64,000 bases of DNA, taken from NCBI RefSeq assembly GCF_019969725.1, contig NZ_JAHXYW010000005.1, positions 186,001 through 250,000 of the forward strand, given 5' to 3'. The notes under the pieces are model-generated. The model saw only the letters and a list, made by a program, of their open reading frames with translations, made no database searches and was not told the origin of the DNA. The stretch's first letter is position 1; each line of letters opens with the position of its first letter. The translations under genes and the position numbers were made by a program. Origin of the DNA: Neobacillus bataviensis (GTDB lineage: Bacteria > Bacillota > Bacilli > Bacillales_B > DSM-18226). Shown here piece after piece: positions 28,470-48,846 of this stretch.

Positions 28470-28498
28470 TAATTAATCCCCTTTTTATCATTTTGTGG

Positions 28499-30162: not shown

Positions 30163-30219
30163 GCGAACCTCCAATAATGGGTTTTGTAAAGGCTCATCCG
30201 TCAAAGCGGAAAAAATTCT

Positions 30220-31245: not shown

Positions 31246-31314
31246 CGAAATTCCCCCTATAAATCTATTTTTTCGACCTGTATCAAATCAAAATAATAAT
31301 TGAGCTAGGACAGG

Positions 31315-31425
31315 TTAATATAACCCGTTCCCAACTTCTAGTGAATTTAACATACCGGGGGCCATGGCTGTTTTTAGTGCTGTCATAATGGACTGATTTC
31401 GATTCACTGCCACGGCTAAAATCAT
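31315..31425 (-). CDS. Short open frame between nagA and lacD, possible regulator remnant
   Basis: A 36-residue frame with a GAGGGAG site 4 nt before its ATG, starting 13 bp after the nagA stop. Its sequence (MILAVAVNRNQSIMTALKTA and on) recalls the C-terminal part of SorC/DeoR-type sugar-binding regulators, where a conserved hydrophobic strand is followed by an Ala-Leu-rich helix. It is far too short to be a complete member. It may be the tail of a deleted regulator gene or a real microprotein. The rest of this 193-bp gap shows nothing else. Confidence 0.35.
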   Translation of the reverse strand: MILAVAVNRNQSIMTALKTAMAPGMLNSLEVGNGLY

Positions 31426-31438
31426 CGCACTCCCTCTT

Positions 31439-32605: not shown

Positions 32606-32680
32606 TTCTCTTACACCTCTGATCAGAAGCAGTTACAGAAAGGGAGAAAATCCCTATCCAATTATAAAAATTCAAAATTA

Positions 32681-33847: not shown

Positions 33848-33870
33848 ACCGACATCTCCTCTTGGTTTAT

Positions 33871-34776: not shown

Positions 34777-34848
34777 TTTTCTGCACCTCTAATTTAGACA
34801 CCTTATTAAAATATTGCCTTTTTACGTATCATAATTTTTATGAGGTTG

Positions 34849-34911
34849 TTTCTATAGGTACGATTTAGGGCTTTTTGTGAAAAATTTTTACTTTATGTAG
34901 TTCAATCTAAA
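34849..34911 (-). promoter_or_regulatory. Weak copy of the island's AraC-type operator/promoter, before the ROK operon
   Basis: The inner half-site TGTGAAAAATTTTTA (34,876-34,890) fits the island consensus well. The outer one, 21 bp further at 34,897, is poor. A TAGAAA hexamer on the minus strand (34,849-34,854) sits at the same 21-bp gap as in the other copies. Confidence 0.45.
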
Positions 34912-34918
34912 TGAATAA

Positions 34919-34954
34919 AAAACAGCCAAGACTATTAAAATAGCTTGGCTGTTA
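34919..34954 (-). terminator. Terminator after the PL8 lyase gene
   Basis: On the minus strand AACAGCCAAG pairs with CTTGGCTGTT around a 16-nt loop and ends in TTTTTT. Confidence 0.78.
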
Positions 34955-34968
34955 CTCAAAAAACGCTA

Positions 34969-37635
34969 TTACCTTTGTGAATCCAAGAGTATGGTTTTAC
35001 TTAACAAAAAATTAGCAAAAAAAGGATTAATCATTTTTCCAGATTGAGCTCGAACTTGATTTTCAAGATCTGTCACACCATTATCCACTAACTTACTGCC
35101 AATTTTGTATTTTTGAATCTGATTAACCTTAGAAATTAAACTGTTATAGATTCCGTCATTCATGATCCAGCCATTTTGATAGCCGAAATCAATGACTTGA
35201 TTTAACCGTTCAATATCCTTCGACTCATCGACTTGGAACTTCACAACATGTGTTTTACCGATAGACCCGGCCGTATTAACCTCTACTTTTATTGTAGGAG
35301 ATGTTTGCAGCACCTTTACGGTATCATCTTTACTTATGACAGAAATTCCTGTTTTATCTACATCAATGATGACTTTGTCCTGCTTTTGTGTTGGATCCGA
35401 AACAGACAATGTCAATTCACCTTTTTTCTCCTTCACCATAACAGAGGAAGGATTCTCAGCCGTGATGAAATCTGCCGTCCCAGGTGCGAAAAAGTTGGCA
35501 GCGGTTATTCCCAGCGTCGTTTCTTTAACCGAATGAACATCCTTTGTATTGCTTAAGATTGTTACATCCGGATTCTGGCTGTATGCTTCTACTTCTTCTT
35601 TAGATTTATTTGGCAGCAGTACATACGAATAAGAAGCCTCTTGCGGATTTATTCCATGATTAAAAGCCAAGCTTAAGTAATTTCTTGTAATCGGAGCGGT
35701 TGAACCTCCGCTGTTAATATCTTTCCATGATCCGGTTCTTGCTTCTCGTAAACCATCAATTTGTGCAGGATTAGGGAAATAATAGCCGATGTCTGAATTT
35801 TGAACATTCCCCTCTAAATGGGCCCACTTGACGTTTTCCATTGGTTCTGACCAGCCAAGACTGCTTGATTTTGTTTCTCCATTTACGGTTAACTGGTTGT
35901 CTCCGGCATCTCGCAATTGCCGGTTTTCAACAATCGTTTCTACTTTACGACTGTCCCCGCCTTTAATATCGGATCCGAGCGCAACGATTTCATCATCAAA
36001 CATGAACCAAGACTTTTTGCCTTGCAAGCTGCTCCCTGTCACATTTGCAAGTGAGAAATCCATACCAGCCGATCCATAAAGCCCATCCATTGTGGATCCG
36101 CCTGCCCAATTTCTGGTGTTATAATAAGCGGCCCAATCTCTTAATATTCCTTTTGACCCGTCCGTGGTTGTACCCGCTAATCGGAAGCTGTCGACTGTTG
36201 GCCAAAAATCGTTTTTAAATTGCTTAAGATCATTGTTGTATAAATTGGTCATGCCGATTCCTGTATACCAGCCCTTTTGGTTTTCTCCATTGCCGTATTC
36301 AAAAGCAGATATCCGATCGGAGAACATGCTTAATCCAAAACCAAAGCCCGGGCGTAAATGCACGACTCGGTCCATACCAGCAAACACCTGATTTTTAAGT
36401 AATTCCCCTCTTGGTTGAATCGAAGAATCCGCCATCAAGGATTTTACAAGATTAATATCATAAACCGACAAACCTGCTGTATAGTTAGGGAACGTAGTAT
36501 CCGTTTGAATCCATTCTTTCACCATGCGCTTGATTGACGTTGATTTTTCCTGAGGAGCTGCATTGGCCAAATTTAACAAGCTTAGAATGATGGTTCTGCC
36601 TTTATCATGATCATTTTCATATTGGCGCGAAATGGATCGTCCATTCACCATATCCATCACCGCCCCTTTATAAATAAGCGGTTCAAAAGTATCCGATACC
36701 CAGTTAAAGATATTATCCACTTGAGGAGACGGCCATTTAGAATCCTTTAACAAATATAGGATGTCTGCCGTACGCGTGAGCCAAACAGCTCCATAACTGC
36801 CTGTGTAAGCAATATTAAAGTGCTGGACGAGGGACCCATCTTTATAAACGCCATCACTATGATCCACGTAAAGATATTCATTAGGAAGCGAATCATGCCC
36901 TTGGGTTACTTTTTCATCGGTTTTCCCAATCACCCCTCTGAGGTTAGCGATAAAAATTTTGTCCAGCAGGTTCGCTCCTGTTTCTTTAATGGCATTGTTA
37001 TACGTTCTCACTTTCGGGTTTGGATCAAAATGGTCAATTGCCTTTATATAGTTATTTAGCTGTGTTGGTGAAAGCTCATCGTACAATAAGACCATAATAT
37101 CGTTTAATCTCTTTGGTGTTCCGATTTCCCAGTCCCACCAATTTCCATACTCGCTTTTTTGCTCGTTATAACGATTGGCGTACATCCAATCCAAGGCGCT
37201 TATAAGGTCAACTTTCATCGCTTCATTATGATATAAGCTTGATCCTTTAATGGAATAGGCAAGCGCCATATCTTTCAAGTTGTTATAGGCACTGGTAATC
37301 TCAGCTGAATTTGACGTACTCACTAGGTTCTTCCATAAGTATGACCGGCCCTCTTCCTTATTTAGCGTGTCCCAGTACCCTGTTTTTCCGGCATTTGTAA
37401 CCCGATTGGATAATTTCACAAGGTACTCATTTATATCCGAGTCATTTGGGTTGTATTGTTCATTTCCCGTCAATTTGTTAAACCATCTTGCACGAGCTTT
37501 GTCAAAATCATCCATGGTGACGGACTGCTCCCCTGTTGTATTGGCTTTAGCGATGTTCTTTACAGAAATAAGAGAAACAAGAAGCATGGAAATTATCAAT
37601 AAAATCATTGATTTCCTTTTTTGCGGTTTAGCCAT
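34969..37635 (-). CDS. Secreted polysaccharide lyase family 8 (hyaluronate/chondroitin lyase type)
   Basis: An 888-residue exported enzyme. A Sec signal peptide ends at about Ala31 (AKA). The alpha/alpha-toroid domain carries the PL8 catalytic set: Asn222 in TGANLLDK, and His272 and Tyr281 in the DGSLVQHFNIAYTGSYG stretch. Beta-sandwich domains follow from about residue 400, including the NGENQKGWYTGIGMTNLY segment shared with hyaluronate lyases. It cleaves uronic-acid glycosidic bonds by beta-elimination and yields unsaturated disaccharides. PL8 also holds xanthan and chondroitin AC lyases; the surrounding genes favour hyaluronan or chondroitin. No cell-wall anchor is visible. Confidence 0.9.
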   Translation of the reverse strand: MAKPQKRKSMILLIISMLLVSLISVKNIAKANTTGEQSVTMDDFDKARARWFNKLTGNEQYNPNDSDINEYLVKLSNRVTNAGKTGYWDTLNKEEGRSYLWKNLVSTSNSAEITSAYNNLKDMALAYSIKGSSLYHNEAMKVDLISALDWMYANRYNEQKSEYGNWWDWEIGTPKRLNDIMVLLYDELSPTQLNNYIKAIDHFDPNPKVRTYNNAIKETGANLLDKIFIANLRGVIGKTDEKVTQGHDSLPNEYLYVDHSDGVYKDGSLVQHFNIAYTGSYGAVWLTRTADILYLLKDSKWPSPQVDNIFNWVSDTFEPLIYKGAVMDMVNGRSISRQYENDHDKGRTIILSLLNLANAAPQEKSTSIKRMVKEWIQTDTTFPNYTAGLSVYDINLVKSLMADSSIQPRGELLKNQVFAGMDRVVHLRPGFGFGLSMFSDRISAFEYGNGENQKGWYTGIGMTNLYNNDLKQFKNDFWPTVDSFRLAGTTTDGSKGILRDWAAYYNTRNWAGGSTMDGLYGSAGMDFSLANVTGSSLQGKKSWFMFDDEIVALGSDIKGGDSRKVETIVENRQLRDAGDNQLTVNGETKSSSLGWSEPMENVKWAHLEGNVQNSDIGYYFPNPAQIDGLREARTGSWKDINSGGSTAPITRNYLSLAFNHGINPQEASYSYVLLPNKSKEEVEAYSQNPDVTILSNTKDVHSVKETTLGITAANFFAPGTADFITAENPSSVMVKEKKGELTLSVSDPTQKQDKVIIDVDKTGISVISKDDTVKVLQTSPTIKVEVNTAGSIGKTHVVKFQVDESKDIERLNQVIDFGYQNGWIMNDGIYNSLISKVNQIQKYKIGSKLVDNGVTDLENQVRAQSGKMINPFFANFLLSKTILLDSQR

Positions 37636-37697
37636 TGTCTTCCTCCTCGGAATATAGTGAAAATAATGATCTGTTTTCTAAATTTTCAGACTATAAA

Positions 37698-37711
37698 TGG
37701 AAGCGTATTCA
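37698..37711. promoter_or_regulatory. Candidate CcpA (cre) site upstream of the PL8 gene
   Basis: TGGAAGCGTATTCA fits the cre consensus TGWAANCGNTNWCA at all but two positions. It lies 63 bp upstream of the lyase start and overlaps the likely promoter (a TATAGT hexamer follows on the minus strand). Catabolite repression by CcpA would be expected for a secreted polysaccharide-degrading enzyme. Confidence 0.4.
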
Positions 37712-37739
37712 AAAAACTAATAACCAAACTTTTACTAAA

Positions 37740-38345
37740 TTAATAGTCAACGAGTGTTGCTGCTGCCGTTAAAGCCCTCTTATGATTTTTACTGCTTGCA
37801 ACAATACCTAGCACTTTTTCGTTTGTATGATAGCCCGCCTTCTCCAAGGGCGGATTCTTGACTATCTTAACTCCGTAACAATGTTCTTGCCCGTTATCCA
37901 TACTTGATAAAAACCGGGTGCCGTTTGAAAATTTGCTTTCAAATTGATCAAGCGGCAAAAAAGTCCCTTCACGAGCAAAACGTATGAAAGACTTTTTATC
38001 CATCACGACTATATCAACGCTTCCCGTTGCAATCATCGCCATCAGTTTTTGCTGGATAGTTCGATCTGAAAGAGTGTTATCACTTGTTGTCCAAAAATTA
38101 ATTTGAATGTTTGGGGATTCTCTTTCTCCTGAGAATTTTTTGGTAATGTCTCGTTGTACATCGAGCCGCTTTTTCTCTTTTACAAAATTTCCAATAAACA
38201 CTGCCTGTAAATCTGTTTCCTTTGAGTGATGAATAGATGGAAGAAGGGATAGAATCATCCCAGCAAATAAGATTCCTATGAGGATGAATGATTTGTAATG
38301 GTACCAAATTTCATCTGTTTTTTTGAAGAATGTTTTGATATCCAT
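37740..38345 (-). CDS. Membrane-anchored protein with partial solute-binding-protein fold
   Basis: A 201-residue protein with one transmembrane helix at about 18-37 and an extracellular domain of about 160 residues. That domain resembles a fragment of family 1 sugar-binding proteins: an NIQINFWTTSDNTLSDRTIQQKL stretch interrupted by short gaps, then DIVVMDKKSFIRFAREGTFLPLDQ. It has no lipobox, unlike the real binding protein at 40,305. It lies between the YesM-type kinase and the PL8 gene on the same strand, so it may present ligand to the kinase. That role is inference from position only. Confidence 0.6.
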   Translation of the reverse strand: MDIKTFFKKTDEIWYHYKSFILIGILFAGMILSLLPSIHHSKETDLQAVFIGNFVKEKKRLDVQRDITKKFSGERESPNIQINFWTTSDNTLSDRTIQQKLMAMIATGSVDIVVMDKKSFIRFAREGTFLPLDQFESKFSNGTRFLSSMDNGQEHCYGVKIVKNPPLEKAGYHTNEKVLGIVASSKNHKRALTAAATLVDY

Positions 38346-38385
38346 TTTTTTATTCCTCCTTTCCGGGATACCATTACAAAGAAAA

Positions 38386-38412
38386 TGTTACTGGAGCCAG
38401 GCACCAGTAACA
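38386..38412. terminator. Palindrome between the kinase gene and the anchored protein gene
   Basis: A perfect 9-bp inverted repeat, TGTTACTGG with CCAGTAACA, around AGCCAGGCA. On the minus strand it is followed by TTTTCTTT and may terminate or weaken transcription after the histidine kinase gene. Confidence 0.5.
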
Positions 38413-38461
38413 ATGTACGATTTTTACTCATATGGAGGAGGATTTTTACCTTTTCAATTAA

Positions 38462-40192
38462 TCACAAAGGCCCTTTAATAGGAATAGATAAGCGAATGGA
38501 CAGTCCTGAATTTTCATTACCTTGAAAATCCATCGATACCTCAGGTCCGTAGGTCAGCTTTAGACGTTGAAATACATTTTTAAGGCCAATATGTTTTTTA
38601 CCTTCATTTTGCTCCGCTTCCTCATGAAGATTGGACTGCAGGCATTTAATTTTTTCTTCCGATATCCCTATGCCATTGTCACGTACTTCAATGATTAATT
38701 GTTGATTTTTTATGCTTCTAGCTTGAATAACAATCTCCGGTTTATAGAGAATTTCATTAAATCCGTGAATGATGGCGTTTTCAACTAAAGGCTGCAAAAT
38801 TAAGCGAGGCACGCGGAAATCTTCCCATTCTTCCGGAAGATCAATAATCAAATCCAAATTCATGTCGTTCCGCATCTTCATAATATCGGTATAGTCAATC
38901 AATAACTCACACTCTTTCTTCAGGGGCGTCAGTTCATCTACCCTCATGTAAGCACGCAGCAGCCTCATTAAAGAATCTATTTGACGGCTATGAATGTGAT
39001 CATTGTTTAAAATCAGATTACATTTAATTGAATTGAGTGTATTAATCAAAAAATGCGGGCGGATCTGAGCAAACAATGCTTGAAGTTCAATCACCCGTTT
39101 TTCTTCCTGCTCTTTTTTGAATTTTCCAATCCATTGTTTGATTTGATCGAGCATGTTGTTAAACGCATTTCCCAGTACTGCAATTTCGTCTTTTCCTTCT
39201 ACCGGGAAACGGACGCTTAGATTTTCATTTCCAAACTGTTCGGCTACCCTTCTTAGTCTATTAAGGGGTTTGTAAATGGATTTGCCAATAAACACTGAAA
39301 TAATAAGAAAGATCAAGATACTAATAGAAAGAGAAATAGCATAGAAACGAAAGGTTTGCGAAATTTCGCCTGTGATATTTTTAAATGATGAACGATAAAG
39401 CAGCTTCCAATTTGCAGCAGAAACGGTTGCACCAACCTTTAATTCCTCCGCATCCGCAGGTCCTGCTTCATTGTCTGGGTATTGAATAATCAACTGTTTT
39501 TTATCATCGTACAACTGGAACGTTCCGGAATCTGGTTTTTTAAACAGATGTTTAAAATATCCATGCGGGATTCCTACAAAAATAACCCCTAAATCCTTGC
39601 CGTTGGAGAAATCTTTATAGGATCTCACAGCAAAGTAATAGGATTCATTTTCAGTCAATGGCGATATGCCTAATTCGGATTCTGTTACCCAATAGATTCT
39701 GTTAGGATTGAGCGTGCTCCTCCACTTTGGATCTAGTGCTTTTGAATTGGGATTCTTAAGGAATGAATATTCCAACGTATTACTTCCAGAGATTAAAAAA
39801 TTGCTGTTATTCAAATAAAATACCTCTGCCTTTAGTCCAGAAGTTTTAGAGAAAGCTAATTTAAGAAAATCGGAAATGCGGGCATATCTTTGATAATTTT
39901 CAAAGGAAGATAACTGACCGACATCTTTAAAAGCCCTAATATCCTCAAACGTGTTACTTCCTGGTTTTCCATAAAGATTGGTGGCATAGACGATTTCCTC
40001 GACCGTTTGATTTAAATCGCTTGCATACACATTGACCACATTTTGGCGAGAATCCTTCACCTTCTCGACTACTACACCTCTAATGAGGGAATAAGAAAAA
40101 ACCGACGCAATCGCAAGGGGAAAGAGAATAAAAATAAAAAAGGAAATTTGAATTTTCCGGTAAAAAGTAGATTTAAACAGCCATTTCATCAT
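38462..40192 (-). CDS. YesM-type sensor histidine kinase
   Basis: A 576-residue membrane kinase. TM1 spans about 16-38, an extracellular sensor region about 40-280, TM2 283-304, HAMP about 300-355, the His-kinase domain has phospho-acceptor His380 in IRPHFLINTLNSIK, and the ATPase domain has LVENAIIHGF and a DNGIGI motif. It should phosphorylate the YesN-type regulator at 44,515 on sensing an extracellular sugar. It is separated from the binding-protein gene by a terminator; a TATACT hexamer about 35 bp upstream of its RBS may be its own promoter. Confidence 0.9.
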   Translation of the reverse strand: MMKWLFKSTFYRKIQISFFIFILFPLAIASVFSYSLIRGVVVEKVKDSRQNVVNVYASDLNQTVEEIVYATNLYGKPGSNTFEDIRAFKDVGQLSSFENYQRYARISDFLKLAFSKTSGLKAEVFYLNNSNFLISGSNTLEYSFLKNPNSKALDPKWRSTLNPNRIYWVTESELGISPLTENESYYFAVRSYKDFSNGKDLGVIFVGIPHGYFKHLFKKPDSGTFQLYDDKKQLIIQYPDNEAGPADAEELKVGATVSAANWKLLYRSSFKNITGEISQTFRFYAISLSISILIFLIISVFIGKSIYKPLNRLRRVAEQFGNENLSVRFPVEGKDEIAVLGNAFNNMLDQIKQWIGKFKKEQEEKRVIELQALFAQIRPHFLINTLNSIKCNLILNNDHIHSRQIDSLMRLLRAYMRVDELTPLKKECELLIDYTDIMKMRNDMNLDLIIDLPEEWEDFRVPRLILQPLVENAIIHGFNEILYKPEIVIQARSIKNQQLIIEVRDNGIGISEEKIKCLQSNLHEEAEQNEGKKHIGLKNVFQRLKLTYGPEVSMDFQGNENSGLSIRLSIPIKGPL

Positions 40193-40261
40193 TTCCGCCC
40201 CTCCTCTGCATCATCTGCCGACAATTTAGTATACCATGACCGCTGAACCTAATAATAAGGG

Positions 40262-40288
40262 AAAAAGCAACCATTTCGGCTGCTTTTT
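40262..40288 (-). terminator. Terminator after the solute-binding protein gene
   Basis: On the minus strand AAAAAGCAGCC pairs with GGTTGCTTTTT around GAAAT. Confidence 0.72.
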
Positions 40289-40304
40289 CTCGGGACAAAC
40301 GTGT

Positions 40305-41624
40305 TTACTTGGATTTAGAAATGATATCGTTCCCCTGCTCAACCATCCATTTTTGGGCATCTTCAGCACTTGTTCCATCTAACATGAATTTGCTGAATCC
40401 ATCCTCCAACACTTTCTTTAATTGGCTGGCATAGCCTGTTGTATAACTTGTATCGTAAGTTACATATCCTCTATTATCGAACACGGAGCTCACTAGTGAT
40501 TGTTTGTCTACCAGATTTGAGTCTTCACCAATCATTTTGTTAATAACAGCATCCTTGTCGACATTCTTAGATCCTGGAATATCACTGATCACATCTGTTT
40601 GCTGCGCCATATAAAGAGCGAATTTATAAGCTTCTTTCTTGTGTTTAGATGACTCCCCAATCGCGAGATAATGTCCGCCAACGTTTTCTGCACCAACCTT
40701 AGTGTCTTTTGAAGACTGCGGCAGCGGTGCGAATACAGTTTGGAAATCGTGCGGATACTTTTCTTTATCCTTAATTAAACCGACGAAGAATGCTGCTGTA
40801 GGAAGCATAGCTGCTTCACCATTTAAGAATTCTGATGCATAGTGCAATTGGGCGGCAATGACATCCTTAAATGGCTTAACAGAGCCGTCCTTTTCCATGT
40901 TACGGCGCAGCTCAAAGAAATTCTTAAAAGATGGATCATTAAATACCGGCTTTTGATCTTTTGTTAAATATGGGTGTGGCAGCTCAGAGTAAGCAACGAA
41001 ATTATCGTATTCTCCCCAAGTATGGAAGTAAGCGCCATACTGCTTGCCCTTCGTTAATTTTTTGGCATACTCACGGAAATCGTCCCAAGTCCAGCCCCAT
41101 GTAGGGACAGGCAGCCCGGCTTCATCCAATGCTTTTTTATTTAACGCGACCAGCCAAGGCTGTGAGGTATCTTGGATACCATATGTCTTATTCTCATATT
41201 TCGGCACACTGTAGAATTCTTCATCTGGATTAATAGAATCCGCTTTCAAAAAATCATCTACCGGAGCCAACACGCCGCGGGCTGCACGCTCTACCATGAA
41301 ATCCACATGTGAGAAAGCCACGACATCAATAGGTTGTCCAGTCCCCATCTTAATGTCCAGTTTTTTGTAATATTCAAGACTGTTATTGTTTGTAACGAGC
41401 GGTTCATAATGAACCTCAATATTCGGGTTTGCTTTTTCAAAATTGTCAATTTTTTTCTGAATCACATCATTGGTTTCCCAAGTATAGTAGTTGATGGAAA
41501 CCTTTTCATCTTTCTTTGCTGTTTTTTGATCAACCTTTTCTGTTCCAGCGGAGCAGGCCGATAGAAAAACAGAGCCTACCAATGTCATACTCAACAACAT
41601 ATTTCGCATCTTTTTCGTCTTCAT
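40305..41624 (-). CDS. ABC transporter solute-binding lipoprotein, probably for glycosaminoglycan disaccharides
   Basis: A 439-residue family 1 extracellular solute-binding protein. The lipoprotein signal ends at Leu-Ser-Ala-Cys (Cys24). The body has the usual PIDVVAFSHVDFMVERAARG and NGEAAMLPTAAF segments. It delivers sugar to the two permeases encoded just upstream. It has its own promoter and tandem operator in the 95-bp gap before it, so it can be made in excess over the permeases. Unsaturated hyaluronan or chondroitin disaccharides are the inferred ligands. Confidence 0.88.
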   Translation of the reverse strand: MKTKKMRNMLLSMTLVGSVFLSACSAGTEKVDQKTAKKDEKVSINYYTWETNDVIQKKIDNFEKANPNIEVHYEPLVTNNNSLEYYKKLDIKMGTGQPIDVVAFSHVDFMVERAARGVLAPVDDFLKADSINPDEEFYSVPKYENKTYGIQDTSQPWLVALNKKALDEAGLPVPTWGWTWDDFREYAKKLTKGKQYGAYFHTWGEYDNFVAYSELPHPYLTKDQKPVFNDPSFKNFFELRRNMEKDGSVKPFKDVIAAQLHYASEFLNGEAAMLPTAAFFVGLIKDKEKYPHDFQTVFAPLPQSSKDTKVGAENVGGHYLAIGESSKHKKEAYKFALYMAQQTDVISDIPGSKNVDKDAVINKMIGEDSNLVDKQSLVSSVFDNRGYVTYDTSYTTGYASQLKKVLEDGFSKFMLDGTSAEDAQKWMVEQGNDIISKSK

Positions 41625-41656
41625 GAATGTTTCCCCCTTTATTCACTTTCAAATTT

Positions 41657-41719
41657 ATTATAATTTTCAATTTAATTTAAGGCTGTGTAATATTTTGAGA
41701 ACATTGTGCACAATTTTGC
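41657..41719 (-). promoter_or_regulatory. Tandem AraC-type operator and promoter of the binding-protein gene
   Basis: Half-sites TGTGTAATATTTTGA (41,684-41,698) and TGTGCACAATTTTGC (41,705-41,719) are 21 bp apart. A perfect TATAAT lies on the minus strand at 41,657-41,662, exactly 21 bp from the inner half-site. The hexamer at the -35 position is poor, as expected for an activator-dependent promoter. Confidence 0.7.
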
Positions 41720-42550
41720 CTACCCTTTGACACCGCCAACCGTGATTCCCTCGATAACCTGTTTTTGAAGGATTAAAAATACAATAACAAGTGGAACAAT
41801 CGCAGCAAGGGCTGCCATCATCGTTGCTGCATAGCTGGTGCCAAATTCATCGGCAAACATTCCCATTCCAAGTGTAATCGTAAATAATTTTTGACTGGAT
41901 AGAAAGATAAGCGGATTCTGATAATCATTCCAAGTCCAAATAAACTTAAGAATACCCGCAGTTGCCAGAATGGGTTTTACCATTGGCAGCATAATCTGCC
42001 AATAAATCCGGAGAAATCCGGCCCCATCCATCTTTGCCGCCTCGATATATTCCGTACTGATTCCGATCATAAACTGCCGCATCAGGAACGTAAGCGGGAT
42101 GGAGAATGCAGACATGAGTATGAGTGCTTCATGAGAATCATACAGGCCAAGCCAATTGATCAGGATAAATCTAGGGACCAGCGTGGATTCTGACGGAACT
42201 AAGAAAAACGCCATTAGTAAAAAAAACACTGTATTTTTAAAAGGAAAATTTAATTTTGCAAAGGAATATCCCGCCATCGAAGAAATGATCAGCGTAATGA
42301 CAGTTGAGATAATGGCAAGTTTTAATGAATTGAAATAAAACAATTCAAACGGGACTTTTCCAAGCCAGACGGTTTTAAAGTTTTCAATGATGTTCCAGTT
42401 ATTTGGAATCCATTCGATTGGGTAAGACATAACATCCTTCTCTACCTTTGCTGCAGAAGAGAGCATCCATAACAAAGGGGACAAGAACAAAAGCGACAAC
42501 ATCCCAACCAAAATCGTTCCAATAATTTTTGATACTTTCAAGTTCGTCAT
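41720..42550 (-). CDS. Sugar ABC transporter permease (MalG/AraQ type)
   Basis: A 276-residue inner-membrane permease with six predicted helices. The EAA loop is EYIEAAKMDGAGFLRIYWQIMLP split around residues 182-204, which docks with the ATPase. The ATG at 42,550 follows AGGAGGTG; a longer in-frame version runs into a Cys/His-rich stretch that belongs to the upstream permease gene in another frame. It is 14 bp downstream of the partner permease gene. Confidence 0.88.
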   Translation of the reverse strand: MTNLKVSKIIGTILVGMLSLLFLSPLLWMLSSAAKVEKDVMSYPIEWIPNNWNIIENFKTVWLGKVPFELFYFNSLKLAIISTVITLIISSMAGYSFAKLNFPFKNTVFFLLMAFFLVPSESTLVPRFILINWLGLYDSHEALILMSAFSIPLTFLMRQFMIGISTEYIEAAKMDGAGFLRIYWQIMLPMVKPILATAGILKFIWTWNDYQNPLIFLSSQKLFTITLGMGMFADEFGTSYAATMMAALAAIVPLVIVFLILQKQVIEGITVGGVKG

Positions 42551-42564
42551 ATCATACACACCTC

Positions 42565-43509
42565 CTAAAAATTCTCTTTTTGCGCCCTGGCAGTAATAAG
42601 AGTGATGACAGCAACAATGACAAATAATATCCAAGATAATGCACTTGCATAACCCATTCTAAAATTTTGGAAACCTTCTTGGTAAATATAATAAACAAGA
42701 ACATTCGTTGAATTGTTTGGTCCTCCTTCGGTTAAAAAAGCAATCAAATCAAAGACCTTAAACGAGTTTACAATCGATGTGATAAGCAGGAATAAAGTTG
42801 TTGGTCCCAGCATTGGAACGGTAATATGAAAAAATTGCTGAAGCTTGTTTGCACCGTCTATTTGGGCTGACTCATATAATTCCGCTGACACACCTGTTAA
42901 TCCTGCGAGATAAATGACGACATTATAGCCGACGATATTCCATACTGCGATAATAATGATTGCCCAAAGAGCAGAATCCGTACTGCCGAACCAATCAGGC
43001 GGATGGGCAATTCCTATCGAATGTAATACTTTATTAATCACACCCAGAGAAGGATGGAATAATACAGAAAATACTGTTGCCACTGCAACCATCGTTGAAA
43101 TATAAGGTACAAAGAATGCCACCTTAAAAAAGCCTTTAAAATAGACAGTTGATGAAATTAACACAGCGATCACCAATGATAACCCAATACTGACAGGAAC
43201 ATATACGAGAGAAAAAATAAAATTGTTTTTCAAGGCTTGGTAGAAAACCTTATCGTGGAATACATTGATGAAATTCTCTAATCCAATAAAATGAATTGCT
43301 TTGAGTCCGCCTACCAAGTTCCATTCAGTAAAACTTAAATACAATGAAAAAAGCAGCGGGAAAACACCAAGCCCAACAATCCCAATAAATTCTGGGGCAA
43401 TGAAAAGCCAACCGCTTAACGATTCTCGACGGGAGTTCGTCCAAAAACTTTTTTTAATCATAGACTTCCCAATTGATTTACGGGTTGTTTTTACTATGTT
43501 CGTTTCCAT
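42565..43509 (-). CDS. Sugar ABC transporter permease (MalF/UgpA type)
   Basis: A 314-residue permease with six predicted helices after a basic cytoplasmic N-terminus of about 30 residues. The EAA loop is ELYESAQIDGANKLQQFFHI near 215-234. It pairs with the downstream MalG-type permease. No ATPase gene is in the island, so a shared MsmX-type ATPase encoded elsewhere is likely, as for many Bacillus sugar importers. GAGGTGAGG precedes the ATG. Confidence 0.88.
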   Translation of the reverse strand: METNIVKTTRKSIGKSMIKKSFWTNSRRESLSGWLFIAPEFIGIVGLGVFPLLFSLYLSFTEWNLVGGLKAIHFIGLENFINVFHDKVFYQALKNNFIFSLVYVPVSIGLSLVIAVLISSTVYFKGFFKVAFFVPYISTMVAVATVFSVLFHPSLGVINKVLHSIGIAHPPDWFGSTDSALWAIIIIAVWNIVGYNVVIYLAGLTGVSAELYESAQIDGANKLQQFFHITVPMLGPTTLFLLITSIVNSFKVFDLIAFLTEGGPNNSTNVLVYYIYQEGFQNFRMGYASALSWILFVIVAVITLITARAQKENF

Positions 43510-43542
43510 TATATCCTCACCTCATCTTTTGTTTGTACTCTA

Positions 43543-43605
43543 AATTTAATGGAATCTTAGTGGGGTTCCCATTGACAATTTGTACTTGTGCGTGCAATAT
43601 TTTTA
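43543..43605 (-). promoter_or_regulatory. Weaker copy of the tandem operator/promoter, before the permease genes
   Basis: CATTGACAATTTGTA (43,570-43,584) and CGTGCAATATTTTTA (43,591-43,605) are 21 bp apart. A TAAATT hexamer on the minus strand (43,543-43,548) lies at the same 21-bp gap. The inner half-site is degenerate, the outer one good. It serves the permease genes starting at 43,509. Confidence 0.5.
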
Positions 43606-43651
43606 CCTTTTCAAAAGCCTGTTCCAGCTTTTTTCAGAGTATACCCATGGG

Positions 43652-43714
43652 TAAAAATCTTTCACATGAGGGTAAAAATTCTTCACGACCGATTGTTCCT
43701 ATTTTCTTTATAAT
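43652..43714 (+). promoter_or_regulatory. Tandem AraC-type operator and promoter of the DUF624 gene
   Basis: Read on the minus strand the half-sites are TGTGAAAGATTTTTA (43,652-43,666) and CGTGAAGAATTTTTA (43,673-43,687), 21 bp apart. A perfect TATAAT on the plus strand at 43,709-43,714 sits exactly 21 bp beyond the inner half-site. Orientation relative to the gene is the same as in the other copies. Confidence 0.68.
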
Positions 43715-43762
43715 AATAAATATTAATGAAGATTTTCCGTTCATATAAAGGAGGGGGTAAGA

Positions 43763-44407
43763 ATGGAATGGAAAGGTATTTTGGGATTAATCTTCCGTAC
43801 GTGTGAGTGGATCATGCTTTTGGCGTACCTTAATATTCTTTGGATTCTTTTCACTCTATTAGGAGCAGTTGTTTTCGGGATCTTCCCCGCAACGGCAGCG
43901 ATGTTTGCGGTCATTCGAAAATGGTTGATAAGTAAACATGATGTACCAGTGCTGAAAACATTTTGGACCTATTATCGGGGAGAATTTTTAAAAACAAACC
44001 AATTAGGACTAATGTTTTTCGTGACAGGTCTCATTCTATATCTTGACTTTAAAATCATTGATTTTCAAAATGAATTCATTCATAAGATATTTTTGATTGT
44101 TTTATTCCTGTTTACTAGTGTTTACGCAGTGACTTTTATTTATATTTTTCCGGTCTTCGTCCAATATGATTTGAAACTTCTCCAGTATGTGAAAAATGCT
44201 TTTCTGATCGGGATTGCTAACCCGATTAGAACCGCCATGATGGTAGTGTGTCTCATTACTGCCTTTTTTGTACTAAGACTGGCGCCTGGTCTGCTTCCTT
44301 TCTTTTCAGGTAGCCTGCTAAGTATCGTGATGATGACTTTTGCTTATCAATCTATTAATAAAATTGAACATAAAAAAAGCAGCTCTGCTGTAAGCAACAA
44401 TCATTAA
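43763..44407 (+). CDS. DUF624 (YesL) family membrane protein
   Basis: A 214-residue membrane protein with about five hydrophobic segments and the YesL-family N-terminal block, including LNILWILFTLLGAVVFGIFPATAA near 23-46. YesL-type proteins usually lie beside YesM/YesN systems and sugar ABC transporters; their function is not known. It is the only plus-strand gene of the island, is divergent from the permease genes and has its own copy of the operator, which ties it to sugar uptake. GGAGGGGG precedes the ATG. Confidence 0.82.
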   Translation: MEWKGILGLIFRTCEWIMLLAYLNILWILFTLLGAVVFGIFPATAAMFAVIRKWLISKHDVPVLKTFWTYYRGEFLKTNQLGLMFFVTGLILYLDFKIIDFQNEFIHKIFLIVLFLFTSVYAVTFIYIFPVFVQYDLKLLQYVKNAFLIGIANPIRTAMMVVCLITAFFVLRLAPGLLPFFSGSLLSIVMMTFAYQSINKIEHKKSSSAVSNNH

Positions 44408-44439
44408 CAATTGAAACGAAACATTCAGACCAAAAGCAA

Positions 44440-44502
44440 CCCCATTTTGTACTAGGACGATAGCAAGCAGCCGCTTCTCCAAGGTCAAAATGGGGTTTAT
44501 TT
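44440..44502. terminator. Bidirectional terminator between DUF624 and yesN-type genes
   Basis: A 12-bp stem AACCCCATTTTG with CAAAATGGGGTT encloses about 38 nt that may fold further. TTTATTT follows on the plus strand. Confidence 0.62.
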
Positions 44503-44514
44503 ACAATTAAATCT

Positions 44515-46119
44515 TTACGTAAGAATCTTATTTGCTTGCCTGGATTTATATTCCCCCGGGCTATATCCTGTATGTTTCTTAAATATTTTGGAGAAGTAAG
44601 TTCTGTCGGAATAGCCCAGCTGACTTGCAATAATTTCAATGCTGTCTTCTTTTTCCTTCAACAATTTTTCAGCCGTCTTCATTTTAAAGCGATGAATATA
44701 ATCCGTGAAGTTTTCACCAGCTAGTCTTTTAAAATAACGCGAAAAGTAACTAGGGTTTAAGAAAAGGAAGTTAGCCATATCCGCCGAACTGATATTCTCA
44801 GACAAATGCTCCATGATAAATTGATCAATTTCTTGCAGCTTTGGTTTTTTCCTTGAATCGTTTTGTTTGTCCTCCATGGAACTCATCAATTGTTCAGCTT
44901 TATTTTTTAACAATAAGATGAAGTCTTTCAACTTAACAGAATTCTTCAAAAAATAGGCGAACTCCTCGCTTTTTAAAGAGTTTCCGCTTTTTACATCCAT
45001 ATAGCTAATCCAGCGCTCCCCGTTATCTATAAGTTGTTTAGGATTAATGTGTTTTTCAATAGACAACGCTTCCAATTCATCGATTGTTCTGAAGATGGTT
45101 GGTAGATCGTTATGATCAAATGCTTTCATCAACTCGTTACCTAACGGCTTTAGCATTTCATTTGAATTGATATGCCAATCACTACGATGGTTAGAATGTA
45201 ATCCGCTTATAGACGAATCAAGATAAAAGGCCTGATAACGAGATTTGCTCAATTTCACTATTTCGTCCCCAAGATTTGCTCTTTTAACTATATTTCTACT
45301 GTATAAAAAAGAGAGATTTATTTTTAAGTATTCATTAACCCTCTGTTGCAAATCAACTAGAAAACGATGATACTCTTCAAAAGTGTTTTGGGAAATCGTA
45401 TATTTAAAGTTAAAAATGATATAAAGATTATTCTCTTTATCCAGAATGGGTGTCATTCCTTTAACATTTTGAGCTAACTCCTCAGCAATGTTAAGAATCC
45501 CAAATTTTATAAAAAGAATATCACGAAGACTATATTTTTCCGGTAAAGTAGAAAAATCAATAAAAGATTTCCCCATTATAAAATCAGGAAATACCCAATG
45601 AATCCCTAACTTTTTACCGTACCCCAGTATATTTTCTATATTTTTTCCAGATAGAATTTGCTCTAAAAAGTTTTGCTTTAAGACTTCTTTATTTATTTGG
45701 ATTGTTTCCCTGAATGAATAGAGTTCCAAATTATCTTGTGAATCCTTTAAATGCTGCAGTGATTTTCTAAGACTTTTTTCCAATTGTTCAGAAGTCAGTT
45801 CATCTTTAATCAAATATTCGTCCGCACCTAATTGGACCGCACGTTTCGCGTAATGAAAATCCTCATGACAGGTTAGGAATATCATCCGGACATCCGGTTT
45901 CAATTCTCTAAATTTCTCTGCTAATTCAAGCCCATTTATTTGAGGAAGTCCAATATCCGAAATAACAATGTCCGGGAGTGTAGAGTCAAATAATTGAAGT
46001 GCTCTCATAGGAGAGTAGGCTGCAGCACAAATAGTTAACTCGAGACTGTTCCACTGAACCAACTTTTCTAAATATTTTAGCATTGGGACGTCATCATCAA
46101 TCAGCATGATTTTATACAT
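44515..46119 (-). CDS. YesN-type AraC response regulator
   Basis: A 534-residue regulator. The receiver domain (1-120) has the acidic pair Asp9-Asp10 and the phospho-acceptor Asp55 in DIVISDIGLPQ. A long middle region of unknown fold follows, then a C-terminal AraC-type double helix-turn-helix (about 435-534) with MANFLFLNPSYFSRYFKRL and IIASQLGYSDRTYFSKIFKK. AraC proteins bind tandem sites about 21 bp apart, matching the operators in this island. The ATG at 46,119 follows AAGGAGG. It likely works with the YesM-type kinase at 38,462. Confidence 0.9.
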   Translation of the reverse strand: MYKIMLIDDDVPMLKYLEKLVQWNSLELTICAAAYSPMRALQLFDSTLPDIVISDIGLPQINGLELAEKFRELKPDVRMIFLTCHEDFHYAKRAVQLGADEYLIKDELTSEQLEKSLRKSLQHLKDSQDNLELYSFRETIQINKEVLKQNFLEQILSGKNIENILGYGKKLGIHWVFPDFIMGKSFIDFSTLPEKYSLRDILFIKFGILNIAEELAQNVKGMTPILDKENNLYIIFNFKYTISQNTFEEYHRFLVDLQQRVNEYLKINLSFLYSRNIVKRANLGDEIVKLSKSRYQAFYLDSSISGLHSNHRSDWHINSNEMLKPLGNELMKAFDHNDLPTIFRTIDELEALSIEKHINPKQLIDNGERWISYMDVKSGNSLKSEEFAYFLKNSVKLKDFILLLKNKAEQLMSSMEDKQNDSRKKPKLQEIDQFIMEHLSENISSADMANFLFLNPSYFSRYFKRLAGENFTDYIHRFKMKTAEKLLKEKEDSIEIIASQLGYSDRTYFSKIFKKHTGYSPGEYKSRQANKILT

Positions 46120-46199
46120 AGTGGAAAGCCTCCTTTTACTTAAATATACTAGCTTTATTTTTGACAAGTAACAACTTGCTCTTTATTGTTGTTTGTATG

Positions 46200-46361
46200 C
46201 TAACTTATAAGATTTTTGGAGAACAGTTCTTGATAAATAATGATTAACTGGTCAAGTTCTTTACTGACTTGAATGGTCTTGTGTGCCGATAGTCCATACT
46301 GCTCGGCTAGGGCAAGCATCTTTTTTCTCTTCTTTTCAATTGAAATTTCTAACATTTTCAT
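46200..46361 (-). CDS. Spo0E-like aspartyl-phosphate phosphatase
   Basis: A 53-residue protein with the Spo0E-family signature: an N-terminal helix (EKKRKKMLALAEQYG), then VSKELDQLIIIYQ, where the S-x-E-L-D core lies at 33-37. Family members dephosphorylate Spo0A~P; others are uncharacterised. GAGGAAG lies 7 nt before the ATG. It lies 80 bp upstream of the yesN-type gene on the same strand, behind an island operator. Its presence in a sugar-use locus is unusual and could link the diet to sporulation, or it may act on the regulator itself. Confidence 0.75.
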   Translation of the reverse strand: MKMLEISIEKKRKKMLALAEQYGLSAHKTIQVSKELDQLIIIYQELFSKNLIS

Positions 46362-46428
46362 GTATCAACTTCCTCAATCGTAATTCACATATAATTCTAC
46401 ATTTTTTTGAAAATTAATTAAATTAGAA

Positions 46429-46569
46429 TTACAAATGATCGTATGAAGTAAAACTTAAGGATGTGTTTGTCAGCGCCTCCAAGTTCCCTATCTTAGCGAG
46501 GAGACTTTGCAGAAAACCTTCATTCGAGATCAATCCATTGTCGCCGGCAGCATGGATATTTAATTTATA
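46429..46569 (-). pseudogene. Possible gene remnant directly behind an island promoter
   Basis: An open stretch of 46 codons with no start codon on the minus strand, beginning just after the -10 box at 46,569. Its NIHAAGDNGLISNEGF segment weakly recalls the GDNG loop of arylsulfatases, an activity one would expect in a chondroitin sulfate locus. The match is short and may be chance. If not a remnant, it is the 5' leader of the spo0E-like/yesN transcript. Confidence 0.2.
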
Positions 46570-46631
46570 TTATATTCCGTCTATTTTTTTAATTCTGTGC
46601 AGAATTTTGAGGAGGTTGTGCAGAATTTTGA
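46569..46631 (-). promoter_or_regulatory. Best-conserved tandem AraC-type operator and promoter, before spo0E-like/yesN
   Basis: Two identical half-sites TGTGCAGAATTTTGA (46,596-46,610 and 46,617-46,631) are 21 bp apart. A perfect TATAAT on the minus strand at 46,569-46,574 lies exactly 21 bp from the inner half-site. It would drive the spo0E-like gene (200 nt downstream) and the regulator gene, suggesting autoregulation. Confidence 0.72.
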
Positions 46632-46712
46632 TTTCTCTTTTGTTTGAACTATACACCTAGTAGCCAAAAACACCCGGTTGCTCAAAACCGGCTTGGCTTT
46701 TTAAAAGAATAA

Positions 46713-46739
46713 AGCTGCAGAAAATCTGCAGCTTTATAG
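46713..46739 (-). terminator. Terminator after the ThuA-domain gene
   Basis: On the minus strand AAAGCTGCAG pairs with CTGCAGCTTT around ATTTT. A second GC-rich hairpin (46,663-46,703) lies next to it. Confidence 0.7.
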
Positions 46740-47387
46740 TTGATTAAATAATGTCCAATTTATTTTTCCTGCTAACAAGCTAGAGATGTTTGTATTTAAC
46801 ATTCCATCTTTCGTATGAGCCGGAGTAAAGCAGCATATTTTCCCTTTTGCATAGTGATGCTTCCATCCTGCAAGTGAATCTCCATCAGCACTAGTGCTCC
46901 AAAGGTCTACTTTTGTATTTGCTGCATCGCAATGAACTAAATAGTGCTCATCGGTAAGGAAGAATATTTTCTCTCCACTTTTTTCATTTTCCTTACACAT
47001 GTAAATCACCTGTTGAAGTCCTGGTGGATGATAGACAAAATAGCCTCTTAACATGTGAATATAGTGGGATTCTGGTGAATACCCTGCCATACCGGCATGC
47101 CAAGCAAGGATACTCCCACCCTCTTTGATGTAGTTGACTAGCTTTTTATCCAAATCTTCCGTTAGCCAGATAATCACTTGTTCATCCATTGGATTTAGCT
47201 GGGCCATTTTTGCATTGATAAATAAGTCTGGTTTATCATCGAGAACTTGTGAAACTTCTTCATGTGTAATATATTGAAGGTCAATACTTTCATGGTAATG
47301 TAATCTTGAAATGGCTGCTTGTAATCCAGCTTTTAGATCGTCTATATCATGCCAATAATCTCCTAATAATGCTGCAATATTTAACAT
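46734..47387 (-). CDS. ThuA-domain (class I amidotransferase-like) protein
   Basis: A 217-residue protein resembling the ThuA family first seen in trehalose-use loci. Conserved stretches are the GGSILAWHAGMAGY segment near 90-103, GYFVYHPPG near 115-123, DEHYLVHCD near 147-155 and HHYAKGKICCFTPAHT near 178-193. No function is proven for the fold; it lacks a clear Cys-His-Glu triad. It follows the GH88 gene by 111 bp on the same strand and likely belongs to the same transcript. Confidence 0.7.
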   Translation of the reverse strand: MLNIAALLGDYWHDIDDLKAGLQAAISRLHYHESIDLQYITHEEVSQVLDDKPDLFINAKMAQLNPMDEQVIIWLTEDLDKKLVNYIKEGGSILAWHAGMAGYSPESHYIHMLRGYFVYHPPGLQQVIYMCKENEKSGEKIFFLTDEHYLVHCDAANTKVDLWSTSADGDSLAGWKHHYAKGKICCFTPAHTKDGMLNTNISSLLAGKINWTLFNQL

Positions 47388-47498
47388 CCTGCTAATCTCC
47401 TTACCAGTTCAACTATACATTAATAAAAAACTGCCAGATTATTCATCTAACAGTCCAATTCACAGTCGCCTATTATTATTTTGATCACTAATATGATT

Positions 47499-48686
47499 CT
47501 ACCAATAAAGCTCCCAGTCTTTAAGTACCCTTACTAATGCCTCCATATAGTAGTAATCGCCCCAGATGTTGCATTCATCGACTCCGACATTATGAGGAAT
47601 GCTGTAAACAGCATGTAAAAGCAAACCATTTGATTCAGAATGATTGATGGTAGTATAATTTTCAATCAACGATTTCAAAATATGCATTGCTGTACTTTGA
47701 TAGATGTTTTTCATTGGATGATCAAGAGGAAGCCATTTATCCATTTCCAAAAGTCCACAGATGGCAATACTGGCAGCTGATGAATCCCGATACTGATCGC
47801 CTTCTGTAAACATAAGATCCCAATAAGGAATATAATCCTCAGGCAGTCGATTGAGAAAATATTGGGTTACCTTATGATACATTTCCATAAAGCTCTCATC
47901 TTTTGTATACAGGTAACTTAAAGGAAAGCCGTACACGCCCCAGGCTTGGCCACGGGCCCAGCAAGAATCGTCTGAATACCCTTGAGCAGTTACCCCTTTT
48001 GCAGGTTGACCAGTCTCACTGTCAAAATAATACGTATGGAACGTCGATGCATCCTCTCTAACCACGACTTTCATAGCTGTTTTAGCATGCTTGTATGCTG
48101 CATCATAAAAACGCTGATCGCCAGTAACCTCGCTCGCCCAAAACAGAAGCGGTAAGTTCAAGTAACAATCAATAATCAAACGATAGTTATCAGGGGCGTT
48201 CAAATCCCCCCATGCTTGGATAAATTCACCCTTTTTACTAAAGCGCTCCATTAATGTATCTGCAGCCTTAAGCGCAATATTTTTTGCCTCTGAATTTCCT
48301 GTCAGCTTATAAGCAGCTACACAAGACAGAGTATAAAGAAACCCTAAATCATGGTGGTTTATCCCTAATCGCTCATCGATTCTTTTACGGAAGGTCTCCA
48401 CTTGAATTTCGGCAACCTCACGAAACTTCTTATTCCCGGTCATTTCATATGCAAGCCAAATCATTCCTGTCCAAAAGCCCTGTGTCCATTCATAATCATT
48501 TTGGACCGGTGAATACACATTGTTGACGCTCGCAGCATCTGGAAATGTTTCCTTGAAAAGCTCAAGATTTTCTTCCACTTTTCGAATACAGTGTTCTAAG
48601 GCTTTTTCAACTTGATGTTTTGTTAATCCATGGTCCTTAAAAAACCTTTCAGGATGTAAAATACCTTCTTCAATCACTCTTGACAT
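47499..48686 (-). CDS. Unsaturated glucuronyl hydrolase, GH88
   Basis: A 395-residue alpha6/alpha6-barrel enzyme of the GH88 family, without signal peptide and so cytoplasmic. The two catalytic Asp are Asp113 (GINHHDLGFLYTLS) and Asp173 (YRLIIDCYLNLPLLFWAS), at the spacing of the Bacillus GL1 enzyme. Trp/Asp-rich segments such as QGYSDDSCWARGQAWG line the pocket. It hydrates and opens the unsaturated uronic acid of disaccharides made by the PL8 lyase, releasing the keto-uronate and an amino sugar. Confidence 0.92.
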   Translation of the reverse strand: MSRVIEEGILHPERFFKDHGLTKHQVEKALEHCIRKVEENLELFKETFPDAASVNNVYSPVQNDYEWTQGFWTGMIWLAYEMTGNKKFREVAEIQVETFRKRIDERLGINHHDLGFLYTLSCVAAYKLTGNSEAKNIALKAADTLMERFSKKGEFIQAWGDLNAPDNYRLIIDCYLNLPLLFWASEVTGDQRFYDAAYKHAKTAMKVVVREDASTFHTYYFDSETGQPAKGVTAQGYSDDSCWARGQAWGVYGFPLSYLYTKDESFMEMYHKVTQYFLNRLPEDYIPYWDLMFTEGDQYRDSSAASIAICGLLEMDKWLPLDHPMKNIYQSTAMHILKSLIENYTTINHSESNGLLLHAVYSIPHNVGVDECNIWGDYYYMEALVRVLKDWELYW

Positions 48687-48734
48687 GGCTGGCTTCTCCT
48701 TTTAATAAATTCGATCTCAAAAAAATATACATTC

Positions 48735-48797
48735 ATTATAACTTCCGCCATTCTCGGAATATGTGTAAATTTTTTCCCTAAGTGTGTTGTTTTTTTA
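48735..48797 (-). promoter_or_regulatory. Tandem AraC-type operator and promoter of the GH88 gene
   Basis: Half-sites TGTGTAAATTTTTTC (48,762-48,776) and TGTGTTGTTTTTTTA (48,783-48,797) are 21 bp apart. A perfect TATAAT on the minus strand at 48,735-48,740 again sits exactly 21 bp from the inner half-site. Confidence 0.65.
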
Positions 48798-48846
48798 CAT
48801 GTTCAAACGAGAAATGAAGCCGATATGAAATCTGTCGGAAAAATAA

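Follow-up and report, generated by a model that had tools for sequence, protein, structure and literature searches.

The AraC protein at the araBAD promoter of Escherichia coli (araI1-araI2), like other AraC/XylS proteins at class II promoters, uses direct repeats with a period of about 21 bp, the inner of which overlaps the -35 region of a promoter with a good -10 box and a poor -35 box. A comparable arrangement was the subject of a preliminary description of a stretch of 64 kb (39.7% GC) of Neobacillus bataviensis, hereafter the window. The present analysis concerns the tandem promoter sites found in a gene island of this window, and the response regulator YesN, encoded in the same island, which is proposed to bind them.

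AraC-type DNA-binding domains also occur in regulators of two-component systems. In Caldicellulosiruptor bescii, such systems (BxgRS, for example) consist of kinase-regulator pairs encoded beside CUT1 importers; three of the five regulators have tandem-repeat sites with large spacers, which lie upstream of promoters with mapped transcription starts and were read as activator sites (PMC8579813). In Ruminiclostridium (Clostridium) cellulolyticum, the DNA-binding part of XydR, the AraC-type response regulator of the XydS/XydR system, shifts promoter DNA, and both bound regions have a CAAAA(N14 or N15)CAAAA repeat, which is listed at -39 from the predicted -10 box (PMC3572039). In pneumococcus, the two-component systems YesNM and TCS07, which bear YesN names, are tied to carbohydrate use; a 2024 study reports no clear repeat motif for YesN and a CTWWWWWWAG candidate for the TCS07 regulator (PMC11034029).

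Tandem sites upstream of the island's transcription units

Seven sites of common design lie upstream of transcription units of the island (Table 1). Each of them combines two half-sites, which read approximately GTMAAAATNNTNCACA towards the gene (TMAAAATTNTNCACA on the coding strand, with a longer form close to RGTMAAAATNNTGCACA in relatives), and a -10 box. The half-sites recur with a period of 21 bp at six of the seven sites and of 22 bp at site 2, and 21 bp separate the end of the inner half-site from the -10 box in all seven cases. The start codon follows the -10 box at 32-51 bp, except before the spo0E-like gene and yesN, where this distance is 207 bp. The -35 region is poor throughout: the best match to TTGACA, at spacers of 16-18 bp, covers 1-4 of 6 positions, with 4 only at the site starting at 38385, and none of the seven sites appears in the list produced by a sigma-70 promoter scan of the window.

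A direct reading of the window bears out the four strong promoters of the preliminary description, each with two 15-bp half-sites 21 bp apart, oriented towards the gene, and a TATAAT 21 bp beyond the inner one. The poor -35 region had also been recognized, as had the permease copy at 43543, which keeps the geometry with a poorer -10 box. The copy reported at 34849 is a real site in the wrong register, since the half-site taken as inner is the outer one and the true -10 box is the TATGAT of site 1. The list of six sites was incomplete, site 2, before the PL8 unit, having been overlooked.

The sites were scored with three-part matrices (outer half-site, inner half-site and -10 box) trained on 51 relative loci, chosen by their YesN protein (35-46% identity) and amounting to 999 kb, from which the window was excluded. 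Scanned in this way, the window contains seven matches at 27.8-41.0 bits; the next best reaches 12.0 bits, and the top score in 60 first-order Markov copies of the window is 18.6 bits. A sequence-only profile, R1, built from a set of 63 relative sites (non-redundant, 26 bits or more, the two distances summing to 42), ranks the same seven sites first in the window (E 4.4e-7 to 0.0086; next, 0.17).

Table 1. Candidate YesN sites and neighbouring genes of the window. Matrix scores (bits) come from training without the window; genes are listed with their profile matches (Pfam unless noted).
Feature	Position	Strand	Components	Score or profile match
Site 1, before ROK-agaS-nagA-lacD-kdgA-kdgK-kduI	34828..34893	-	outer 34876-34893; inner 34855-34872; -10 TATGAT 34828-34833	40.1 bits; R1 E 1.2e-4
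Site 2, before small SBP-like gene and PL8	38385..38451	-	outer 38434-38451; inner 38412-38429; -10 TAACAT (weak) 38385-38390	30.5 bits; R1 E 0.0086, half-sites only
Site 3, before SBP then YesM kinase	41657..41722	-	outer 41705-41722; inner 41684-41701; -10 TATAAT 41657-41662	40.2 bits; R1 E 8.4e-6
Site 4, before permeases permB-permC	43543..43608	-	outer 43591-43608; inner 43570-43587; -10 TAAATT 43543-43548	32.9 bits; R1 E 1.1e-5, half-sites only
Site 5, before DUF624	43649..43714	+	outer 43649-43666; inner 43670-43687; -10 TATAAT 43709-43714	39.0 bits; R1 E 4.4e-7
Site 6, before spo0E-like gene and yesN (putative autoregulation)	46569..46634	-	near-perfect halves 46617-46634 and 46596-46613; -10 TATAAT 46569-46574	41.0 bits; R1 E 1.1e-4
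Site 7, before GH88 and ThuA-like gene	48735..48800	-	outer 48783-48800; inner 48762-48779; -10 TATAAT 48735-48740	27.8 bits; R1 E 5.7e-4
YesN, receiver and AraC-type HTH, proposed binder	44515..46167	-		Response_reg 9.7e-21; HTH_18 5e-20; HTH_AraC 3e-15
YesM, HAMP/His_kinase sensor, proposed partner of YesN	38462..40192	-		His_kinase 1.6e-16; HAMP 2.9e-13
ABC importer	40305..43509	-	SBP 40305-41624; permC 41720-42550; permB 42565-43509	SBP_bac_1; BPD_transp_1
DUF624 membrane protein (YesL-like)	43763..44407	+		2.4e-31
Spo0E-like protein, 53 aa, between site 6 and yesN	46200..46361	-		SpoOE-like 7e-14
GH88 and ThuA-like	46734..48686	-	GH88 47499-48686; ThuA-like 46734-47387	1.3e-22 and 2.6e-12
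PL8 lyase	34969..37635	-		Lyase_8_N 2.5e-90; Lyase_8 5.8e-78
Small SBP-like protein, 201 aa	37740..38345	-		SBP_bac_1 0.0015, below cut-off
Catabolic operon: ROK kinase, AgaS-like, NagA, LacD, KdgA, KdgK, KduI	27639..34776	-		Pfam/NCBIfam for ROK, AgaS-like, NagA, LacD, KduI

YesN contains the only AraC-type domain found among the 177 open reading frames of at least 70 aa in the window, as had been stated in the preliminary description. A YesM-type histidine kinase and an ABC sugar importer are encoded close by, as in YesN-type systems. Judging from its relatives, yesN more likely starts at the ATG at 46119 than at the listed start of the reading frame.

We consider it highly probable that phosphorylated YesN binds the seven sites as tandem pairs and activates the promoters in the class II manner, and that the sites delineate a YesMN regulon for glycosaminoglycan-type oligosaccharides. 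YesM would sense such an oligosaccharide, of the chondroitin or hyaluronan type to judge by the gene content, and would probably phosphorylate YesN, which in this form would occupy both half-sites, two helical turns from each other and on the same side of the DNA. The inner one would abut or overlap the missing -35 box, and this geometry, together with the poor -35 region, suggests that YesN recruits RNA polymerase to the -10 box. The predicted targets are the importer, YesM, YesN, DUF624, PL8, GH88/ThuA and the uronate/amino-sugar catabolic operon; a site is indeed found upstream of each of the units for which regulation had been predicted earlier (importer, GH88, DUF624, spo0E-like gene with yesN, catabolic operon). 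The presence of sites before both the SBP-YesM unit and yesN makes positive autoregulation of the circuit, and thereby self-amplification, probable. A single switch would tie together importer, lyase, hydrolase and catabolism while raising its own sensor and regulator.

On the minus strand, the island comprises kduI, kdgK, kdgA, lacD, nagA, an agaS-like gene, a ROK kinase, PL8, the small SBP-like gene, the YesM-type kinase, the SBP and the two permeases; beyond the permeases stand DUF624, on the plus strand, yesN with the spo0E-like gene, the ThuA-like gene and GH88; suf genes come next. The names kdgA, kdgK and suf were given by eye, without a profile scan (kdgA and kdgK from sequence and neighbourhood), and the AgaS-like profile match is below its cut-off. 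As in glycosaminoglycan utilisation regulons, PL8, GH88, a uronate branch (KduI) and an amino-sugar branch (AgaS-like/NagA/LacD) occur side by side. This content fits the use of chondroitin- or hyaluronan-type oligosaccharides, and the presence of the AgaS and LacD branch would point to a polymer containing GalNAc. The 201-aa protein encoded ahead of PL8 resembles a shortened or decayed solute-binding protein, with a weak similarity to SBP_bac_1 only. As a speculation, the Spo0E-like protein might couple sugar induction to the dephosphorylation of Spo0A; this gene has a single weak match in the relative loci (L025, E 0.027), and the link to sporulation therefore stays speculative.

Conservation of the sites and their co-occurrence with YesN

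The 51 YesN-bearing loci, which are also the training set of the matrices, contain 151 sites at a cut-off of 20 bits, with at least one site in 49 of them, and no site is found in ten control loci (206 kb) with a distant YesN or none. The recurrence of the sites in related loci, proposed earlier as a check, is thus observed. The genes downstream are permB (47 sites), SBP (46), GH88 (29), YesN (3), YesM (2), DUF624 (1) and others (23, including PL8). Across Neobacillus, Paenibacillus and Cohnella, the same gene classes are preceded by sites in the loci that carry YesN, which agrees with the predicted role of YesN as the binder, and a site before yesN itself also occurs in loci L060 and L065. 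In loci of the Paenibacillus tyrfis group, GH88, PL8 and DUF624 have no match in the examined stretch, yet the sites before permB and SBP are retained; the motif therefore goes with YesN and the importer rather than with the enzymes. Sites are also found in six loci (L007, L025, L026, L031, L045 and L049) before a gene of 763-776 aa with WTEAFPxGNGRLGG near its start, which presumably resembles GH95-type alpha-L-fucosidases, suggesting that the regulon is extended in Paenibacillus.

The spacing of exactly 21 bp claimed at the outset holds between the half-sites of six of the seven window sites and not as a general rule. In relatives, 21 or 22 bp separate the half-sites and 20 or 21 bp the inner one from the -10 box, the combinations 22+20, 21+21, 22+21 and 21+20, the only four allowed, all being present among the 151 sites; a second YesN clade, described below, has 23 bp to the -10 box. 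For 49 relative sites anchored on the outer half alone, a matrix trained at spacings of 21 and 22 places the best inner half at one of these two distances in 42. A -10-like box sought with no trained matrix lies 42 bp past the end of the outer half in 28 of 49 and at 43 bp in 6, each other distance accounting for at most 3.

At the level of whole genomes, this YesN subfamily is narrow: at E 1e-80, a sample of 398 genomes of the phylum includes two that have it. Its orthologue is present in 7 of the 60 genomes of the genus of the nearest relatives, and R1 matches at E <=2e-4 are found in 7/7 YesN-positive versus 0/53 YesN-negative genomes (best YesN-negative match, 0.0017). A repeat on 30 of these 60 genomes with laxer filters gave seven with matches at 1.8e-4 or below and the 23 others at best 0.0025. 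Genomes G005 and G007 provided no R1 training site (only 4.6-kb pieces in the matrix set), yet have matches at the yesN locus. In Paenibacillus (61 genomes, R1 E <=1e-3), the count is 13/30 versus 0/31 (Fisher 1.8e-5, a test that ignores ancestry, related genomes not being independent); at least six of the 13 positive genomes are outside the training set (G122, G502, G505, G508, G516 and G554), their matches lying on contigs that exceed every training contig in length, and 35 of the 36 matches lie within 10 kb of yesN. These genome searches score part of the candidates at the first pass, so that weak sites can escape. The genome scan, applied here to relatives as had been proposed, does not refute the earlier reading: within each of the two genera, matches are confined, at the cut-offs used, to YesN-positive genomes.

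Two matches far from yesN extend this picture. In G037, 65 kb from yesN, a site that almost equals window site 1 (TGGTAAAAATCTTTCACA / AGCCTTAAATTCTACCTA / TATGAT) precedes kdgA-kdgK-kduI, and in G508, 1.5 Mb from yesN, a site of 40.4 bits precedes a PL8 lyase of 1067 aa. Both functions also belong to the predicted regulon of the window. A general recruitment of kdgA operons was rejected, as only one of 30 kdgA loci has the site, which makes this recruitment recent or lineage-specific. Among the further stretches screened, only L207 contains a site, which is the DUF624 site of G001 again.

Several points weigh against the assignment of the sites to YesN or temper the evidence in its favor. The matrix is window-free in its weights and not in its origin, because its seed consensus and allowed spacings (21/22 and 20/21) derive from the pattern of the window. 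R1 training sites came from four of the seven YesN-positive genomes of the genus (L002, L004, L006 and L028), and training also drew on no fewer than two of the 13 positive Paenibacillus genomes (G517 and G551, corresponding to L042 and L048). Two of the 51 YesN-bearing loci (L043 and L046) are without a site of 20 bits or more, and, among the 30 kdgA loci, only that of G037 has the kdgA site, three of the 29 without it being from YesN-positive genomes. No R1 match is found in 17 of the 30 YesN-positive Paenibacillus genomes, of which 15 have a related but altered SBP site, G533 has none and G518 is outside the examined set. Outside the genus, finally, 3 of 40 genomes without the orthologue (G091, G079 and G090) have R1 matches at 9e-5 to 1e-3, each before a paralogous YesMN importer, so that a YesN paralogue could bind some sites.

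Such sites at paralogous importers speak for a first alternative, in which the seven sites would be bound by a different AraC- or YesN-type regulator encoded elsewhere, the YesN at 44515 being a mere neighbour. This is improbable in view of the lack of matches, at the cut-offs given, in every genome devoid of this YesN in the genus and in Paenibacillus, of the proximity of nearly all Paenibacillus matches to yesN, and of the 3' part of the half-site, which varies along with the second recognition helix of YesN.

Some AraC-family proteins both activate and repress, and the sites could accordingly be repressor operators, or serve for repression by unphosphorylated YesN, instead of class II activation. 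Repression by YesN has been raised as a possibility in pneumococcus (PMC11034029). The position of the sites upstream of the -10 box and the poor -35 region at all seven, as well as the activator reading given to three of the five C. bescii regulators with tandem sites upstream of mapped starts (PMC8579813), argue against this second alternative, to which we give even less credit than to the first.

The statistics of the individual elements are less telling than those of the whole. The 15-mer alone was discarded as evidence, being barely enriched in the window (20 found for 12.95 expected, and 6 of 100 shuffles reach 20). Half-sites with at least 13 of 15 matching positions form three pairs within 80 bp, all three at a distance of 21; the signal resides in pairing and geometry, not in the single 15-mer. 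A motif-free autocorrelation of 108 upstream regions gave counts of 15 each at 21 and 22 (other distances, mean 4.0, maximum 8), a result weakened at 21 by control regions inside operons, which also gave 15 (n=54). Neither 21 nor 22 stands out when the permB regions are taken alone, and the sole peak that counts is that at 22 before SBP (12 over 36 regions, mean 1.2). Even with the weak 15-mer and the control peak in its favor, a chance pattern of poly-A stretches and TATAAT mimicking the geometry in AT-rich DNA has a negligible probability, given the gap between the seven matrix scores and all others, the conservation of the sites at the same genes in other genera and the way in which their presence tracks YesN.

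YesN clades and a candidate DNA code

The proposed regulon is well supported and lends itself to a testable generalisation to related YesMN systems. The two recognition helices vary little among most of the orthologues read (NPSYFSRYFK and GYSDRTYFSKVFKK), with deviations in L040, L041, L043 and L048. Of the 17 R1-negative YesN-positive Paenibacillus genomes, 16 were examined; the second helix is GFSDRAYFSKVFKK in 15 of them, as it is in the second YesN copy of G502, and these form the second clade. All 16 loci of this type share an SBP promoter of the form GTCAAAA(N5)TACG ... TACACGGT, with a period of 21 (14 loci) or 22 (2 loci) and a TATAAT 23 bp past the inner half. Their half-site retains the 5' part and has a TGTACA/TGTACG-like 3' part. 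In four paralogous systems (L113, L121, L123 and L124), NPSYFSRLFKK is kept with GYDNQSYFIKIFK as second helix (FR in L124), and a single site per locus combines TCAAAAT or ACAAAAT with a CGTTAA or CGTTAC 3' part. The SBP promoter of the second clade (L213-L228) is highly conserved, and in many of its loci a CACCG/CGGTG inverted pair flanks the inner half; this pair may hold the operator of another regulator.

In AraC, HTH1 faces the upstream part of the half-site, and the present covariation fits a similar arrangement in which HTH1 would read the 5' part and HTH2 the 3' part. A modular YesN code can be put forward tentatively, with somewhat less than an even chance of being right as a whole: HTH1 (N[PAS]SYFSR) would specify an invariant 5' GTCAAAA(T) and HTH2 the 3' hexamer (SDRT for TGCACA, SDRA with GF for TGTACA/TGTACG, NQS..I for the CGTTAA type), in tandem at 21-22 bp with the -10 box at 20-23 bp. 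If true, helix sequences could make it possible to predict what many paralogous YesMN importer systems control in Bacillales and Paenibacillales. Several results count against such a code. No GTCAAAA-like element is found within 260 bp before permB in any of the 16 second-clade loci; no site of 12 bits accompanies the GY-type SDRA proteins of G533 (L231) and of the second G532 copy (L232); and L104 and L106 combine a different first helix with an outer GTCAAAAT. A G at position 14 occurs in 49/74 SDRT versus 2/10 SDRA sites (p 0.012), a weak test and no more than suggestive, as the score cut-offs differ (20 versus 13.5 bits). Counts of CGTTAA-type (53) versus TGCACA-type (96) half-sites in L001-L049 were set aside as uninformative, the thresholds being unequal.

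The architecture probably extends to paralogues, since 7 of the 14 off-ortholog R1 matches examined immediately precede the permB gene of an importer operon with paralogous YesMN. Five others (L107, with no matrix match, L108, L109, L111 and L116) resemble chance matches. In L110 (from 9118, plus strand) and L114 (from 9177, minus strand), an uncharacterised gene of about 840 aa is preceded by one and the same 25-bit tandem site. A set of 63 paralogous loci was also assembled, 60 from the upper part of a permB list (with a few entries skipped), with L103, L112 and L113 added for their R1 matches, the latter two being in that list as well. Sites of at least 14 bits before permB occur in 4/11 loci with the receiver-plus-HTH pairing versus 5/52 (Mann-Whitney p 0.2). 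Dividing the loci instead by the presence of a YesM-type kinase match, a criterion chosen after the first result was seen, gives 9/24 versus 0/39 (8/23 for the former without L103).

Relation to known systems

In the open-licence literature searched, which excludes figures and regulon databases, no report was found of the motif, of the helix covariation or of a YesMN glycosaminoglycan regulon. Such regulons become predictable and testable through a motif with its geometry set out to the base pair, together with a regulon of seven promoters, targets far from yesN and the covariation with the recognition helices. The kind of site is itself already known from the tandem sites of AraC-type proteins. 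The window sites resemble those of AraC/XylS class II promoters by their tandem repeat, an inner half at the -35 region, a good -10 box, a poor -35 box and a regulator with a C-terminal double HTH. AraC is a sugar-binding arm protein; YesN, by contrast, carries the receiver domain of a two-component response regulator, and the half-site sequence differs.

Tandem-repeat sites of two-component regulators are likewise already known from C. bescii; these systems serve plant polysaccharides, unlike the island of the window, and the likeness is one of architecture (PMC8579813). The repeats of the XydS/XydR system have a period of 19-20, versus 21-22 in the window; xydSR is reported not to be autoregulated, and no XydR binding site is defined in that report (PMC3572039). 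For the pneumococcal YesN, finally, no clear repeat motif is reported (PMC11034029), in contrast to the tandem repeat at the candidate sites of the window YesN.

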